From Bacillota bacterium (GTDB taxonomy: Bacteria > Actinomycetota > Aquicultoria > Aquicultorales > Aquicultoraceae), in contig JAIMBH010000009.1 in the NCBI GenBank assembly GCA_023511485.1, positions 1 through 64,000 on the forward strand: 64,000 bases of DNA, in the 5' to 3' direction. The notes under the pieces are model-generated. The model was given only the letters and a program-made list of their open reading frames with translations, was not told where the DNA came from and did not search any database. Position numbers and translations under genes: made by a program. Shown here piece by piece: positions 21,210-32,198 of the stretch; the first letter of the stretch is position 1; every line of letters begins with the position of its first letter.

Positions 21210-21439
21210 AAAAAATCACCTCTATAGCTTATTTCCATAAAATGTTTTAGACAAATCACAAAATTTGCTCGGTAAAGCCGCTAAATAGATGCTTTATTAG
21301 AGGTAGCGGAATGAAAACAATCTGGCGATAGGGGTAGAAGATGTGGCAGGGCTATTGCTAAAATGTTATCATTGCTTTCATTCTGCAACCGGAGGGCTTA
21401 AAGAGAGGTTAAAAAGTTACAATTTAATTGGAGGTGTTT

Positions 21440-22222
21440 ATGCTGGGAAACCTGGGTGAGTTCAGGAAATCGATTATCATTATTATCCTGGTAGCGCTAA
21501 TCGCTATCTCGATTGCCGTAGCTGGTTGTTCGACTAAGGTTGAGGTCAGCAAGAGCACAGAAGGCGTAAAGGAAGGTGCCGGTGGGGCTGAGATGGTTGA
21601 GCTTAAAAGACCCGAAGTTGTTAAGTCGGGAAGTGAGGCCTTAAAATTACTAGAAGATGGAAATAAAAGGTTTGCGGAAGATAGGCTGGCGTCAAAGGAT
21701 GTTGGGTCCAGTAGGCGGGCGGAGCTAGTGGAGGGGCAGAAGCCCTTTGCTATAATCCTAAGCTGTTCCGATTCCCGTGTCCCGCCGGAAATAGTTTTCG
21801 ACGAGGGACTTGGGGACTTATTTGTTATCCGGGTTGCAGGCAATGTTGCAGATACAGTAGCGCTTGGAAGTATTGAGTATGCTGTAGAGCACCTACACGT
21901 ACCGCTGCTGATTGTTATGGGCCACAGCGGTTGCGGTGCCGTAAAAGCTACTGTAGAGGGCGGTGATATCCCACCAAACATCGCAGCAATCGCTGAGAAG
22001 ATCAAGCCTTCGGTTGATATTGCTAAGTCTAAAGAAAAAGAGGAAGATGCAATTATCGAAGCAGCGGTTACTGAAAATGTTAAGGCTGTTATTAAGGACA
22101 TTAAGGCGCATAGTTCGATAGTCAAAGAGATGTCAGAAAGCGGGAAACTTAAGGTTGTTGGAGCCAAGTACGATCTTAAGACAGGAAAGGTCGAATTTAT
22201 AGATAGCGGCTCAGCTGAATAG
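21440..22222 (+). CDS. Exported beta-carbonic anhydrase lipoprotein
   Basis: A 260-residue beta-class carbonic anhydrase (CO2/bicarbonate interconversion) with a lipoprotein signal. Residues ~10-30 are hydrophobic (SIIIIILVALIAISIAVAGC) with lipobox V-A-G-C and Cys30. A short linker precedes the enzyme (~55-255). Zinc and active-site motifs are intact: ILSCSDSRVPPEIVFD, RVAGNVAD, IEYAVEHLHVPLLIVMGHSG followed by CGAVKA. TTGGAGGTG precedes ATG 21440. Most bacterial beta-CAs are cytoplasmic, so a membrane-anchored external form suggests bicarbonate capture or pH control at the surface. Confidence 0.92.
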   Translation: MLGNLGEFRKSIIIIILVALIAISIAVAGCSTKVEVSKSTEGVKEGAGGAEMVELKRPEVVKSGSEALKLLEDGNKRFAEDRLASKDVGSSRRAELVEGQKPFAIILSCSDSRVPPEIVFDEGLGDLFVIRVAGNVADTVALGSIEYAVEHLHVPLLIVMGHSGCGAVKATVEGGDIPPNIAAIAEKIKPSVDIAKSKEKEEDAIIEAAVTENVKAVIKDIKAHSSIVKEMSESGKLKVVGAKYDLKTGKVEFIDSGSAE

Positions 22223-22422: not shown

Positions 22423-22959
22423 ATGGGTAATTACAAAGACGATTTGCTTCAGATATTAAAAGAAAAGGCGCTAGTTTTTGGCGAGGTCACGCTCTCCTCA
22501 GGCGAGAAAAGCAATTATTATATTGATTGCAGAAGAGTGACTTTGGATGCAAAAGGTGCGTTTTTAGTAGGTGAGGTGCTATCGGATATGCTAGAGGATG
22601 CCGATGCAGTGGGGGGGCTGACGCTCGGTGCAGATCCGATAGCAGCTGCAATAGCAGTGCGAAGTTACGAGAAGGGAAATCCTGTTTCAGCATTTATTGT
22701 AAGAAAAGGACAGAAGGCGCACGGCATGATGAAACGCATAGAAGGCCCTATCGCTTCTAACTCGAAAGTTGTCATTGTCGATGATGTAATCACTAAAGGC
22801 GGTTCTGTACTTGAGGCTATAGAAGCCGCCGAATCTGAAGGCCATCGGGTATTAAAAGCCATATGTCTTGTAGATAGGCAGCAGGGTGGAAGCGACATGA
22901 TAAGGAGCAAGGGCTATAAGCTTGAGGTCTTATTCAACCCTGCCGATCTCGGTATCTAG
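22423..22959 (+). CDS. pyrE: Orotate phosphoribosyltransferase
   Basis: Transfers phosphoribosyl from PRPP to orotate in UMP synthesis. It has 178 residues, with a type I PRTase fold: substrate hood SSGEKSNYYIDCRRV, GLTLGADPIAAAIA, VRKGQKAHG, and the PRPP loop VVIVDDVITKGGSVLEAIEA. GCTGGAGG precedes the ATG. A TATAAT lies ~40 bp upstream. It stands apart from other pyr genes. The sequence is the short form seen in Gram-positive and archaeal relatives. Confidence 0.95.
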   Translation: MGNYKDDLLQILKEKALVFGEVTLSSGEKSNYYIDCRRVTLDAKGAFLVGEVLSDMLEDADAVGGLTLGADPIAAAIAVRSYEKGNPVSAFIVRKGQKAHGMMKRIEGPIASNSKVVIVDDVITKGGSVLEAIEAAESEGHRVLKAICLVDRQQGGSDMIRSKGYKLEVLFNPADLGI

Positions 22960-23125: not shown

Positions 23126-23247
23126 ATGAATTAGAGCAAACAAAAGGCGGTTACCAGTTTAGAAGGATCGCATACTCGCCGATAACTATATAAATTAAAT
23201 GTATGGCAACTAATAACGGTGGCAATCCTTAGATTTTTAGGAGGTTA

Positions 23248-23748
23248 GTGTTGAGCGAAGCGACTACGACTATGCCCAAAAAAGCAACTATCATTGCCTG
23301 GAGTGACGATTTAGACAAGGTCTATCCCCAATTAATTTTAGCGACTACCGCAGCAGCTTACGATGTGGAGGTCACCGTATTTGTCACCTTCTGGGGGCTC
23401 TTGGCTTTTAAGAAGAAAAACCTGGGCATCACAGGCAAAGACTGGATGACCAAGATGATGGGGTTCATGAAAAGGGGATCAACAGATAGGCTCAAGATTT
23501 CCCAGATGAATATGGGTGGCATGGGAACCTGGATGATGAGGCAGATCTTTAAGAAAGAGAAGGTTGCAAGCCTTGATAGCCTGATTGAGATGGCTATGCT
23601 ATCCGGTGTTAAATTCATCCCCTGACAAATGACAATGGATGCTTTTGGATTAAAGCATGAGGATTTAATCGATGGGATGGAGCCAGCTGCTGGTGCTTCA
23701 ATGGCAATTGCCGCTGCCTTGGAATCACAGATTAACTGGTTTATTTAA
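23248..23748 (+). CDS. DsrE-family protein with in-frame TGA at the active-site position: probable selenoprotein
   Basis: The frame from GTG 23248 (or TTG 23251), after GGAGG at 23240-23244, runs 125 codons to a TGA at 23623-23625. It continues without another stop to TAA at 23746-23748, giving 166 residues, the usual length of DsrE/DsrF/DrsH-like proteins. Homology is continuous across the TGA: upstream MNMGGMGTWMMRQIF and SLIEMAMLSGVKFIP, downstream QMTMDAFGLKHEDLIDGMEP. Family members have KFIACxMSMDVMGI here, with Cys exactly where TGA stands, so residue 126 is predicted to be selenocysteine. A SECIS-like hairpin begins 13 nt after the TGA. DsrE-like selenoproteins are known in other bacteria. 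Standard gene callers would end the gene at 23625 and lose the redox residue. Alternatives: a Cys-codon sequencing error (TGT/TGC to TGA) or a dead gene. No sel genes are in the window. Confidence 0.85.
23639..23658 (+). promoter_or_regulatory. Candidate bacterial SECIS element
   Basis: Perfect 7-bp stem ATGCTTT / AAAGCAT with apical loop TGGATT containing guanines. The apical loop lies about 21-26 nt after the TGA (23623-23625), inside the range reported for bacterial SECIS elements. It is within the coding sequence, as expected for bacterial SelB recognition. Confidence 0.7.
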
Positions 23749-23868: not shown

Positions 23869-24294
23869 CTAATCTTGGACGTCTATGACTTCAACGTCAA
23901 TTTTAAGAGTTTTGCCTGCCATGGGATGATTGAAGTCGATATCAACGTAGTCGGGCTTTACGTCCTTAACTACTCCGATATACGTGTTGCCATCCTGGCT
24001 CATTGCCTGTAGTTGCATTCCTATTTGTGGCTCAATATCTGGTGGCAAGTCTTCCTTTGGAACATGAAGCACTTTGTCTTCGACGTAATCTCCGTAAGCA
24101 TCCTCAGGCTGAATAACCAATTCTTTTTTGGCACCTTTATCTAGCCCCTCTACACCTTTTTCCAAACCCGGAATAACTTGACCTGAGCCCTGGACGTAAA
24201 TGAGTGGCTCGTTTGGTTCCGTCTGGTCTATTAGCTGGTTATTGACATAAACTTTATAATCTAGTGTTACAACTGAGCCATCTTTAATTGACAT
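23869..24294 (-). CDS. FKBP-type peptidyl-prolyl isomerase (SlyD-like)
   Basis: A 141-residue cytoplasmic prolyl isomerase/chaperone. The FKBP fold is split by an insert-in-flap domain. Motifs: LIYVQGSGQVIPGLEKGVEG, KKELVIQPEDAYGDY, IGMQLQAMSQDG and VDIDFNHPMAGKTLKIDVEV. No His-rich metal-binding tail as in E. coli SlyD. GAAAGGA precedes the ATG. A second FKBP gene of the same length lies at 27.4 kb, and the two are clear paralogues. Confidence 0.93.
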   Translation of the reverse strand: MSIKDGSVVTLDYKVYVNNQLIDQTEPNEPLIYVQGSGQVIPGLEKGVEGLDKGAKKELVIQPEDAYGDYVEDKVLHVPKEDLPPDIEPQIGMQLQAMSQDGNTYIGVVKDVKPDYVDIDFNHPMAGKTLKIDVEVIDVQD

Positions 24295-24432: not shown

Positions 24433-24807
24433 TTAAGCAGGGTGTGCTTTCAATCGTGCCATAGCTTCATCTATACTTTTGAGCATCTTGCAGCTTTCAC
24501 GCACCCGCAGGACATCGTATATGTTCTTGATTTTTTCAACGGGGTTAACAAGAAGAATTTCACCCCCTGCCTCCGCCATTTTTATGCAGCAATTATCAAG
24601 TGCATGAAAGCCCGCAACATCAATAAACTCAAGATGCTTTATATCTATTATAATACGTTTGTATCCAGCATCAATCAAGGCACCTACAGCTCCGTGGGTG
24701 AAGGGTGCAGTAAAGCCATCGCATTCACCCTTAAGGATAATTAACGGAATGCCGTTTATTGTTCCTATATCAATGCTTAGTCGCACCTGCTTTTCTTCAC
24801 CGGCCAT
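24433..24807 (-). CDS. STAS-domain protein lacking the phosphorylatable serine
   Basis: A 124-residue single STAS domain, the fold of anti-sigma-factor antagonists. Visible segments are LSIDIGTINGIPLIILKGEC, RIIIDIKHLEFIDVAGFHAL and GGEILLVNPVEKIKNIYDVL. In classical antagonists the loop is D-S-S-G, and the serine is phosphorylated by an anti-sigma kinase. Here it is D-V-A-G, so the switch by phosphorylation seems absent. It could bind its partner constitutively or act outside sigma control. The SpoIIE-type phosphatase at 12.5 kb is the only partner-switch relative in the window; no anti-sigma kinase is nearby. Confidence 0.85.
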   Translation of the reverse strand: MAGEEKQVRLSIDIGTINGIPLIILKGECDGFTAPFTHGAVGALIDAGYKRIIIDIKHLEFIDVAGFHALDNCCIKMAEAGGEILLVNPVEKIKNIYDVLRVRESCKMLKSIDEAMARLKAHPA

Positions 24808-28618: not shown

Positions 28619-29269
28619 ATGTTTGACTTTGAAGATACCGATAGCCTAATAGATTTACTTGAATATGAAGTGCGTCCTATGAGTAAGAGCGAGCGCACGC
28701 GTCTTAAAATAATGGCAAGTGCCGCTAAGGTCTTTAACGAAAAGGGCTTTGCTGAGGCGTCCATTAAGGATATAGCTGATGATGCTGGTATCGCTAAGGG
28801 AACGATTTATTACTATATCGAGAAAAAGGAAGACCTCTTTTTAATGCTGGTAAATTTTGGGCAGGCACGTCTCTTTGCAAAGGTTGAGAAAGGCCTTAAA
28901 AAAGCAACCACGGCATCCGAAAAAATCGAAACGATAATTCGCGCTCACCTCAAAATGTTAAAAATATTAGGACCGGTTATGCCTGCATTTGCTCAAAACC
29001 TGTTGACCGTAAACTCAAAAACCAGGGAAGCCATAGCCGGATTTCGGGAGCGATATGTGAACTATATTGCATCTGCAATAGAAGAAGGAATCGCATCTGG
29101 GGAGTTCAGGCAAGTAGATTCAAAAAAGACTGCTGTTGCAATTATAGGTATGGTGTTGGGGCAACTTCTTCAGTACAGGTTGTTTACCGGCGTGTTCAAT
29201 GTAAAAGAAATTGGCGATACTACGATGGATATGGTTATCAAGGGCTTAAGGAAAACTCATGAGGAATAA
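28619..29269 (+). CDS. TetR-family transcriptional repressor
   Basis: A 216-residue regulator. The HTH is at ~25-75 (RTRLKIMASAAKVFNEKGFA, then EASIKDIADDAGIAKGTIYY, YYIEKKEDLF). The C-terminal helical ligand domain has a FadR/YcdC-like length. AAGGA lies before the ATG. It is the first gene of a seven-gene efflux operon, and its 3' end overlaps the first HlyD gene. Two palindromes overlapping the promoter are its likely operators. The inducer is unknown; TetR regulators of efflux usually bind an exported compound. Confidence 0.92.
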   Translation: MFDFEDTDSLIDLLEYEVRPMSKSERTRLKIMASAAKVFNEKGFAEASIKDIADDAGIAKGTIYYYIEKKEDLFLMLVNFGQARLFAKVEKGLKKATTASEKIETIIRAHLKMLKILGPVMPAFAQNLLTVNSKTREAIAGFRERYVNYIASAIEEGIASGEFRQVDSKKTAVAIIGMVLGQLLQYRLFTGVFNVKEIGDTTMDMVIKGLRKTHEE

Positions 29270-30437
29270 AATCCTGGGCTTATCGATAAAGGCCAAGATT
29301 ATAGCGTTAATTGTTGCGGCAGTTTTGATATCTGCTTCGCTGGCGATTTTTGTTGAAGCTGGGCAGGGAAGCAGAGCAATTGCGGCTTCCGGCGTTTTAG
29401 GAGCAGAGAGAGTTGCTGTAAGTGTGCCGACTGACTTGGCTTTGCTCGTAGCCGTTACAGACAAGATACCGTCGAATAGCATGACTAAGCAGCTAATGCC
29501 GGTTGGGACTGTGAACAGCTTGAAAATTGAACCGGGCTCTCACGTTAAAAAAGGCGACGTTCTGCTTACGGTCTCCGAGGAGATGGCGCTGCAAAACCTA
29601 AATAAAGCGCAGGCTCAATACGACAATTTATCGGCAACTATAGACAGCCTGAACGATAGCCGTAATGACCTTTCAAAAAAAAGAAGCGATCTGGACACTA
29701 ACGAAGCCAGCTTAAGGGCCAACCGTGCTAAGGCAATAAATGACTTTAATGAGAAGTATGCGGCTGGGCAAGCACAAATCAAACAGCTTGAAGCTCAGCT
29801 TGCCGCCCTTAAGACAAAAGGCGGTAATCCAGCTCAAATCGCCCAGCTTGAGGCTACGATCTCGCAAGCTAGGGCTGGGCAGGAGGCTGGCAAGAAGCAA
29901 TTTGACAAGGCTCTAGGGCAGATGGACTTAGGCCTTGCAAAGATATCCCAAGGCAAAAGACAGATTGATGAAGGCAATTCTGCGCTTGCGAGAAAAATTG
30001 CCCTGCTTGAGAAAAGAAGGGTGCAGGCTGAGACAGGCCTTGCTTTAGCAAGGAGAATAGTTGATTCTACGAAAATCCGAGCCGGAGCTTCAGGTATGAT
30101 TACGGAAATGAGAATCGCAGAGGGCTCTGTTTTATACCCTGGACAACGGCTGATGTCGATTATCCAAACCGATAAGCTAAGAATCGATTTATATATACCG
30201 CTTGATCGGATCAAAGAAGTAAGAATAGGCGACCCGGCTGAAGCTTTGGTCGATGCGGCACCTGATGTGGTGTTCAAAGGTAAGGTAGTGGAGATCGGCC
30301 AAAAGGCAATCTTCGCGCCGTCTAATATAACAACGGATGAGCTTGAACTAGTAAGGGTTGTTAAGGTAACCGTTGAGATCGGCAACAAGCAAGGTATTCT
30401 TAAAGCCGGAATGCCGGTAGATGTGAAAATCTTTTGA
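29259..30437 (+). CDS. HlyD-family periplasmic/membrane-fusion adaptor (long coiled coil)
   Basis: A 392-residue adaptor. Residues ~8-30 are a signal anchor (KAKIIALIVAAVLISASLAI). Two biotinyl-lipoyl halves flank a long coiled-coil hairpin (~105-265) with Gln/Lys/Ala-rich heptads (AQIKQLEAQLAALKTKGGNP). The second half has GASGMITEMRIAEGSVLYPG, followed by a beta-barrel (LRIDLYIPLDRIKEVRIGD). It overlaps the TetR stop by 11 bp. In Gram-positive-type cells such adaptors act with ABC or MFS exporters at the membrane. A second adaptor follows 29 bp later. Confidence 0.88.
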   Translation: MRNKILGLSIKAKIIALIVAAVLISASLAIFVEAGQGSRAIAASGVLGAERVAVSVPTDLALLVAVTDKIPSNSMTKQLMPVGTVNSLKIEPGSHVKKGDVLLTVSEEMALQNLNKAQAQYDNLSATIDSLNDSRNDLSKKRSDLDTNEASLRANRAKAINDFNEKYAAGQAQIKQLEAQLAALKTKGGNPAQIAQLEATISQARAGQEAGKKQFDKALGQMDLGLAKISQGKRQIDEGNSALARKIALLEKRRVQAETGLALARRIVDSTKIRAGASGMITEMRIAEGSVLYPGQRLMSIIQTDKLRIDLYIPLDRIKEVRIGDPAEALVDAAPDVVFKGKVVEIGQKAIFAPSNITTDELELVRVVKVTVEIGNKQGILKAGMPVDVKIF

Positions 30438-31241: not shown

Positions 31242-32198
31242 ATGAACAAGACCATTATTGAGGTCGAAAACTTAATAGTTGATTTTCCCGGCGTTCGCGC
31301 TGTTGATGGTTTGAGCCTGCGTGTGGGTGAAGGGGAAATATTTGGCCTTGTGGGACCTGATGGCGCTGGCAAAACCACAACTATTAGAGTGCTCGCAACT
31401 ATCCTAAAACCTACCGCGGGTTCGGTCAAGGTCTGGGGCAAAGACATCTTGCTTGAGCCACGTGCTGTACGAGGCAAAATAGGCTATATGTCACAAAAGT
31501 TCAATCTATATGCGGATTTGACCGTAGAGGAAAACCTACGTTTCTTTGCCGACATATATGGCATATCGGATACCGAGCGCAAAAAGAGGATGAAGGAACT
31601 ACTAAAATTTGCGCGCTTGGAAGAGTTTACTGGCCGCCGTGCTGAGTTTTTATCCGGTGGCATGAAGCAAAAACTCGCGCTTGCATGCACACTTATGTAT
31701 GAACCGAAGATATTGTTTCTTGACGAGCCGACTACAGGTGTTGACCCGGTCAGCCGACGCGAGTTCTGGGCGATCCTATCTGAGCTTAGAGGCAGGGGCA
31801 TAACGCTTTTTGTATCGACACCGTATATGGATGAAGCAGAGCGCTGCTCAACAGTTGCCTTTATGGATGGTGGGATAATAAAAGTTAGCGATACCCCGCA
31901 ATCCATAAAGGCATCTTTTAGCGGCGAAATAGTCGAGTTGATTGCAAGGCCGCAAAGGGATGCCCGAAAGCTATTAAGCGAGCTTAAATATGTGCGGGAT
32001 GTCGAGATTTACGGTGAACGTCTGCAGCTTACTGTAGACTCAGCTCATGAGGCCATAGAGCGGCTTAAACGAGACCTACCCGATAGGATTGAGTTGGTAT
32101 CTCTGGTAGCGAAAGCTCCAACAATGGAGAGCGCGTTCATTGAGATGATCAAAAGAAAATCCGAAGACCAGAGCTTAAGGATGAGGGAAAGATCGTGA
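31242..32198 (+). CDS. ABC transporter ATPase, first, with altered H-loop
   Basis: A 318-residue nucleotide-binding protein of the YbhF/RbbA-like group. Walker A GLVGPDGAGKTTT, Q-loop YMSQKF, signature FLSGGMKQKLALA, and Walker B ILFLDEPTTGVDP. The H-loop reads FVSTPYMDEAE, with Pro where most ATPases have His. The second ATPase of the operon has the normal FVTTHYMDEAE, so the pair probably makes an asymmetric heterodimer. In E. coli YbhF both halves are fused in one chain; here they are separate genes. It overlaps the first permease gene (GTGA). Confidence 0.95.
   Translation: MNKTIIEVENLIVDFPGVRAVDGLSLRVGEGEIFGLVGPDGAGKTTTIRVLATILKPTAGSVKVWGKDILLEPRAVRGKIGYMSQKFNLYADLTVEENLRFFADIYGISDTERKKRMKELLKFARLEEFTGRRAEFLSGGMKQKLALACTLMYEPKILFLDEPTTGVDPVSRREFWAILSELRGRGITLFVSTPYMDEAERCSTVAFMDGGIIKVSDTPQSIKASFSGEIVELIARPQRDARKLLSELKYVRDVEIYGERLQLTVDSAHEAIERLKRDLPDRIELVSLVAKAPTMESAFIEMIKRKSEDQSLRMRERS

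Follow-up and report, generated by a model that had tools for sequence, protein, structure and literature searches.

Proteins of the DsrE superfamily carry persulfide sulfur on a conserved cysteine, with TusA and rhodaneses as exchange partners. Selenocysteine (Sec) versions with a UxxC motif have been known since 2005; these DsrE-like selenoproteins belong to PF02635 and were described from the Sargasso Sea, the GOS data and Desulfovibrio vulgaris (PMC1088965, PMC2398784, PMC1794560). They are included in reviews of 2022 and 2026 (see also PMC13188914), and COG2210/PF13686 is not mentioned in the searched parts of the main texts of these reviews. A literature text search for DrsH together with selenoprotein returned nothing relevant. 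The Sec form of PF13686 presented below, which has a UxxT motif, is thus not listed in the main-text catalogues as far as these were covered, which is not the same as being unknown. The mechanism, decoding of UGA as Sec, is already well known, and the Sec form of PF13686 is the addition.

The gene comes from an uncultured bacterium and is located in the window, i.e., the whole stretch of 64,000 nucleotides that was analyzed. Its features are the following:

23239..23244, plus strand: ribosome-binding site AGGAGG, present also 5' of the starts of the orthologues
23251..23748, plus strand: DsrE/DsrF/DrsH-like (PF13686) predicted selenoprotein gene, running from TTG to the TAA stop, 165 residues including Sec; alternative GTG start at 23248
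23623..23625, plus strand: TGA codon, predicted Sec, at the conserved cysteine of the family, motif U-Q-M-T
23626..23745, plus strand: 40 codons past the Sec codon, conserved at the protein level, with mostly third-position and synonymous changes

A preliminary description of this DNA had reported an in-frame TGA exactly at the family's cysteine, homology on both sides of it, a normal family length of 166 residues and a 125-residue product without the key residue under standard annotation. All of this was borne out, with one correction concerning the length. The TGA at 23623-23625 is the sole interruption of the frame 23248-23748 (plus strand), and readthrough leads to 166 residues and ends with TAA, while translation table 11 alone yields a product of 125 residues. 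The match to the PF13686 (DrsE_2) profile runs unbroken over the TGA (residues 11-165, model positions 3-156 of 156, E 9.5e-50), and the full-length protein scores 169 bits against a curated cut-off of 25. PF02635 (DsrE) also matches, but more weakly (32.7 bits, cut-off 22.7, 9.2e-08). Full length was thus confirmed, but not the number of 166, because the orthologues begin at GTG or TTG codons that align with TTG 23251 and have GGAGG upstream, which makes TTG 23251 the better start and gives the protein 165 residues.

The alignment across the TGA, which had been proposed as a check, revealed the same TGA in two relatives, G002 and G003 (79% identity), and a cysteine in all others. The codon aligned with the TGA is TGC or TGT in every cysteine-bearing relative fetched, and a cysteine also occupies this position in the homologues of solved structure, 3pnx and 2qs7. 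No other cysteine position is common to the examined relatives, and Sec is the sole Cys/Sec residue of the window protein, as it is of the Sec proteins of G002 and G003. The original proposal of a probable selenoprotein is supported by the Sec machinery, the recurrence of the TGA, the cysteine orthologues and the coding tail, and we put the probability at about 94% that the gene encodes a full-length DsrE-like protein, in which UGA 23623-23625 would be decoded as Sec through the SelB and tRNA-Sec of the organism itself, under the direction of the downstream hairpin. The selenol would then replace the conserved active-site thiol of the family. Sec insertion itself is predicted here from the sequence.

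The recurrence of the TGA was analyzed at two levels. Of the class, 36 genomes were covered; a match at E 1e-15 occurs in 14 of them, and in three of the 14 (the window genome, G002 and G003) the matching gene has one internal TGA. Among 397 genomes of the phylum, PF13686 genes are present in 128, some 150 genes in total. Only three of these genes have an internal stop, in all three cases TGA, at the same codon and within one bacterial family; a TAA, a TAG or a stop at another position was found in none of the some 150 genes. Among named relatives, Candidatus Aquicultor secundus (L019) is the nearest, with 92% identity in the DsrE-like protein, alongside other Actinomycetota assemblies.

The stretch past the TGA was compared with that of relatives. 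Between the window gene and the cysteine congener G006, the 40 codons past the TGA contain 14 synonymous and 2 replacement changes, and the upstream part 56 and 9. When the window gene is set against that of G003, which likewise has TGA, the numbers are 17 and 9 past the TGA and 54 and 24 upstream, and 24 of the 33 differing bases in the tail are at third positions. The two closest Sec genes differ by 4 synonymous and 3 replacement changes in the tail versus 28 and 5 upstream, which is too few to judge. Judged from these substitution counts, the tail past the TGA is evolving as translated protein. This constraint bears on the alternative of a true nonsense mutation, with a recent pseudogene or a truncated protein as its result. 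A single substitution would suffice to turn TGC into TGA, and two close congeners have kept TGC and the same hairpin, but the explanation is improbable in view of the constrained tail, the identical stop in two other genomes and the lack of any other type or position of stop in the PF13686 genes, and also because the truncated form would be devoid of the family's conserved cysteine.

The assembly of the window's genome (G000) comprises 2.37 Mb in 58 contigs and is estimated to be 100% complete. The preliminary description had proposed to search it for selA, selB, tRNA-Sec and selD, with a lack of the first three to count against a selenoprotein, and all four were found, side by side on one strand of a contig of the same assembly:

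contig C47, 323-414: tRNA-Sec, 76.2 bits, also detected by ARAGORN as tRNA-SeC with anticodon tca
contig C47, 555-2444: selB, 415 bits
contig C47, 2701-4074: selA, 639 bits
contig C47, 4365-5282: selD, 368 bits, itself interrupted by a single in-frame TGA (SGUAAKMSPGDL)

Two molybdopterin oxidoreductases of the formate dehydrogenase type encoded in the genome have a TGA in HCARL-U-HSPTVAGL and HQARI-U-HSATVAGL. The machinery on C47, the TGA of selD, the TGAs of the two oxidoreductases and the fact that TGA remains the terminator of ordinary window genes, e.g., 29259-30437 and 31242-32198, make it very probable that the organism uses selenocysteine. All three genomes with the Sec gene have both selA and tRNA-Sec, as do the cysteine-bearing genomes G005, G007, G009 and G010 of the same family. 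In the congener G006 (L018/L039, 97% complete), which has a cysteine in the DsrE gene, neither selA nor a high-scoring tRNA-Sec was found. Two side observations were made: SelD (C47, L032) is a predicted selenoprotein itself, with a small G-loop hairpin that starts 10 nt past its TGA, and the formate dehydrogenase-type genes have their in-frame TGA in a known Sec context at position 1729 of L065 and position 1765 of L067.

The UGA could also be read through by a near-cognate tRNA (e.g., for Trp or Cys) or as part of a general code change, i.e., not by SelB. The Sec codon stands in the context UGAC, which is often described as leaky, but such a reading is even less probable than a nonsense mutation, as UGA still terminates ordinary window genes, the relatives have at this position cysteine, the residue that Sec replaces, and the genome contains further Sec genes in addition to the Sec machinery. 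Least probable is a sequencing or assembly error at 23623-23625 with TGC as the true codon, which appears very unlikely because the identical TGA in two separately assembled genomes of a family with the full machinery would require the error three times, even though the nearest relatives have TGC and the window stems from a 58-contig assembly.

The element proposed to direct decoding as Sec is located downstream of the TGA:

23639..23658, plus strand: SECIS-like hairpin, 7-bp stem AUGCUUU/AAAGCAU (23639-23645 with 23652-23658), loop UGGAUU

The arms and the G-containing loop were confirmed as originally described; the hairpin starts 13 nt past the TGA, the G is at loop position 2, and the loop lies 20 nt past the TGA. 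Bacterial SECIS elements are described as having a stem of 4-16 bp, a loop of 3-9 nt, a G at the first or second loop position and a UGA-to-loop distance of 16-37 nt (PMC13188914). The window hairpin agrees with all of these rules (7 bp, 6 nt, position 2, 20 nt). A published energy cut-off is -7.5 kcal/mol (PMC13188914), and the minimum free energy is -6.7 kcal/mol for the window and -8.1 kcal/mol for G002 and G003 (ViennaRNA, 45 nt), whereby the stretch and the parameters behind the cut-off may differ. The three Sec genes all have the seven pairs intact; as the second pair, G002 and G003 have C-G where the window has U-A, a change that is synonymous on one side and leads to a His/Arg difference on the other.

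The likeness to bacterial SECIS elements held for the rules on stem, loop, G and spacing and for the conservation in three genes, but not for the weight of the hairpin as evidence, because it is equally perfect (7/7) in two cysteine congeners. Folding found the stem, but not beyond chance: the energy is ordinary (z -0.7 for 46 nt), there is a competing alternative fold on a 61-nt stretch, and 6.0% of the in-frame codons in 13 window genes precede a hairpin of equal or better quality when the same rules for loop and spacing are applied. As stand-alone proof of a SECIS element the hairpin was thus rejected. In random synonymous codings the same peptide forms a 7-bp stem in 2.3% of cases with His and in 0.7% with Arg, which is suggestive only. 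The covariation signal is weak because only one compensatory change exists, i.e., one pair is changed on both sides, and 29 of 500 shuffles scored as high; in the alignment used (A1) the other seven stretches start 9 bases after that of the window, and the stem columns are correctly aligned. In the cysteine genes of G005, G009 and G010 one or two stem pairs are lost. Taken together, the hairpin is consistent with a SECIS element as judged from its sequence, but it is not the main proof of Sec. A separate observation is that G006, in spite of its cysteine and of the missing selA and high-scoring tRNA-Sec, has kept a perfect hairpin, which is possibly the trace of a lost Sec form.

The genes around the locus were compared with those of the orthologous loci:

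22423..22959, plus strand: orotate phosphoribosyltransferase-like gene (pyrE-like), upstream neighbor in orthologous loci
23869..24294, minus strand: FKBP-type peptidyl-prolyl isomerase, convergent downstream neighbor in most orthologous loci
24433..24807, minus strand: STAS-domain protein, conserved neighbor

The common gene order is pyrE-like, dsrE, usually FKBP, STAS and a cytochrome-c-assembly-like gene; in G002 and G003 the dsrE gene has no adjoining FKBP gene. Because this order is common to them, the Sec and Cys genes are orthologues. A Sao-type selenoprotein operon was considered and rejected, as there was no such NCBIfam match and the neighbors are housekeeping-like. Between a chemoreceptor gene and the pyrE-like gene, the window also contains a gene for a carbonic anhydrase (Pro_CA) whose N-terminus is lipoprotein-like (21428-22222); it was not found there in those relatives for which the fetched sequence extends over the site.

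In the gene tree, the Sec and Cys forms are interspersed and the Sec sequences do not form one group. A single origin with a single Sec clade was rejected on this tree, with a p-AU of 0.0016 for the DNA (codon and hairpin masked) and of 0.0008 for the protein. Sec and Cys thus appear to have been switched at least twice in this bacterial family, whatever the direction of change, with the reservation that the gene is short and several forks are open.

With one selenol, no thiol and no internal bridge, transfer to or from a partner or reduction with an external thiol would be the most likely mode of action. The chances are about even that the protein takes part in the trafficking of sulfur or selenium, as a carrier or reductant with a single selenol; as it has no second cysteine for an internal bridge, it would form an Se-S intermediate with a partner, for instance a TusA protein. 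The genome has three TusA genes. The DsrE-like gene does not share an operon with sulfur or selenium genes that would point to its partner, so it is the family that points to a trafficking role. Elsewhere in the genome, another DsrE-like open frame (C13:68922-69460) lies beside one of the three TusA genes (C13:69245), a more usual sulfur-transfer pair.

The Sec form would be an addition to a widespread sulfur-trafficking family, and recognizing it mends an annotation from which the key residue would be missing, along with the final quarter of the protein. With the Sec/Cys orthologue pair, nature provides a clean experiment on why selenium is used in a protein, because Sec is the only Cys/Sec residue and near-identical Cys orthologues exist, one of them (G006) without selA and tRNA-Sec. 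If the prediction is true, the pairs with 91-93% identity would allow testing what selenium adds to sulfur/selenium transfer. On balance, we favor the view that the gene represents an uncatalogued selenoprotein subfamily, i.e., a Sec-containing DrsE_2 with UxxT, a single selenol and no thiol, with at least two Sec/Cys switches within one bacterial family and near-identical Sec/Cys pairs (91-93%).

Several known systems can be compared with the window protein. SelD and the formate dehydrogenase selenoproteins of the same genome share with it the in-frame TGA, and SelD also a hairpin with a G-containing loop, but they belong to well-known families with a fold unrelated to the DsrE-like protein. 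The sulfur carrier DsrE2 (NCBIfam NF047629) aligns over the full length, but identity with this equivalogue was rejected, since its score of 94.7 bits falls well short of the curated cut-off (210 bits). The cysteine-containing DrsE_2 proteins (PF13686), e.g., 3pnx, annotated as 'putative sulfurtransferase dsrE', and 2qs7, have the same length and family, but cysteine in place of the predicted Sec, and in the phylum searched the Sec form was found only in three genomes of one bacterial family. The known DsrE-like selenoproteins (PF02635) likewise have Sec within the DsrE superfamily, and the window protein also matches their profile; they have UxxC, whereas the window protein has UxxT (UQMT, the same in G002 and G003), belongs primarily to PF13686 and has no second cysteine.
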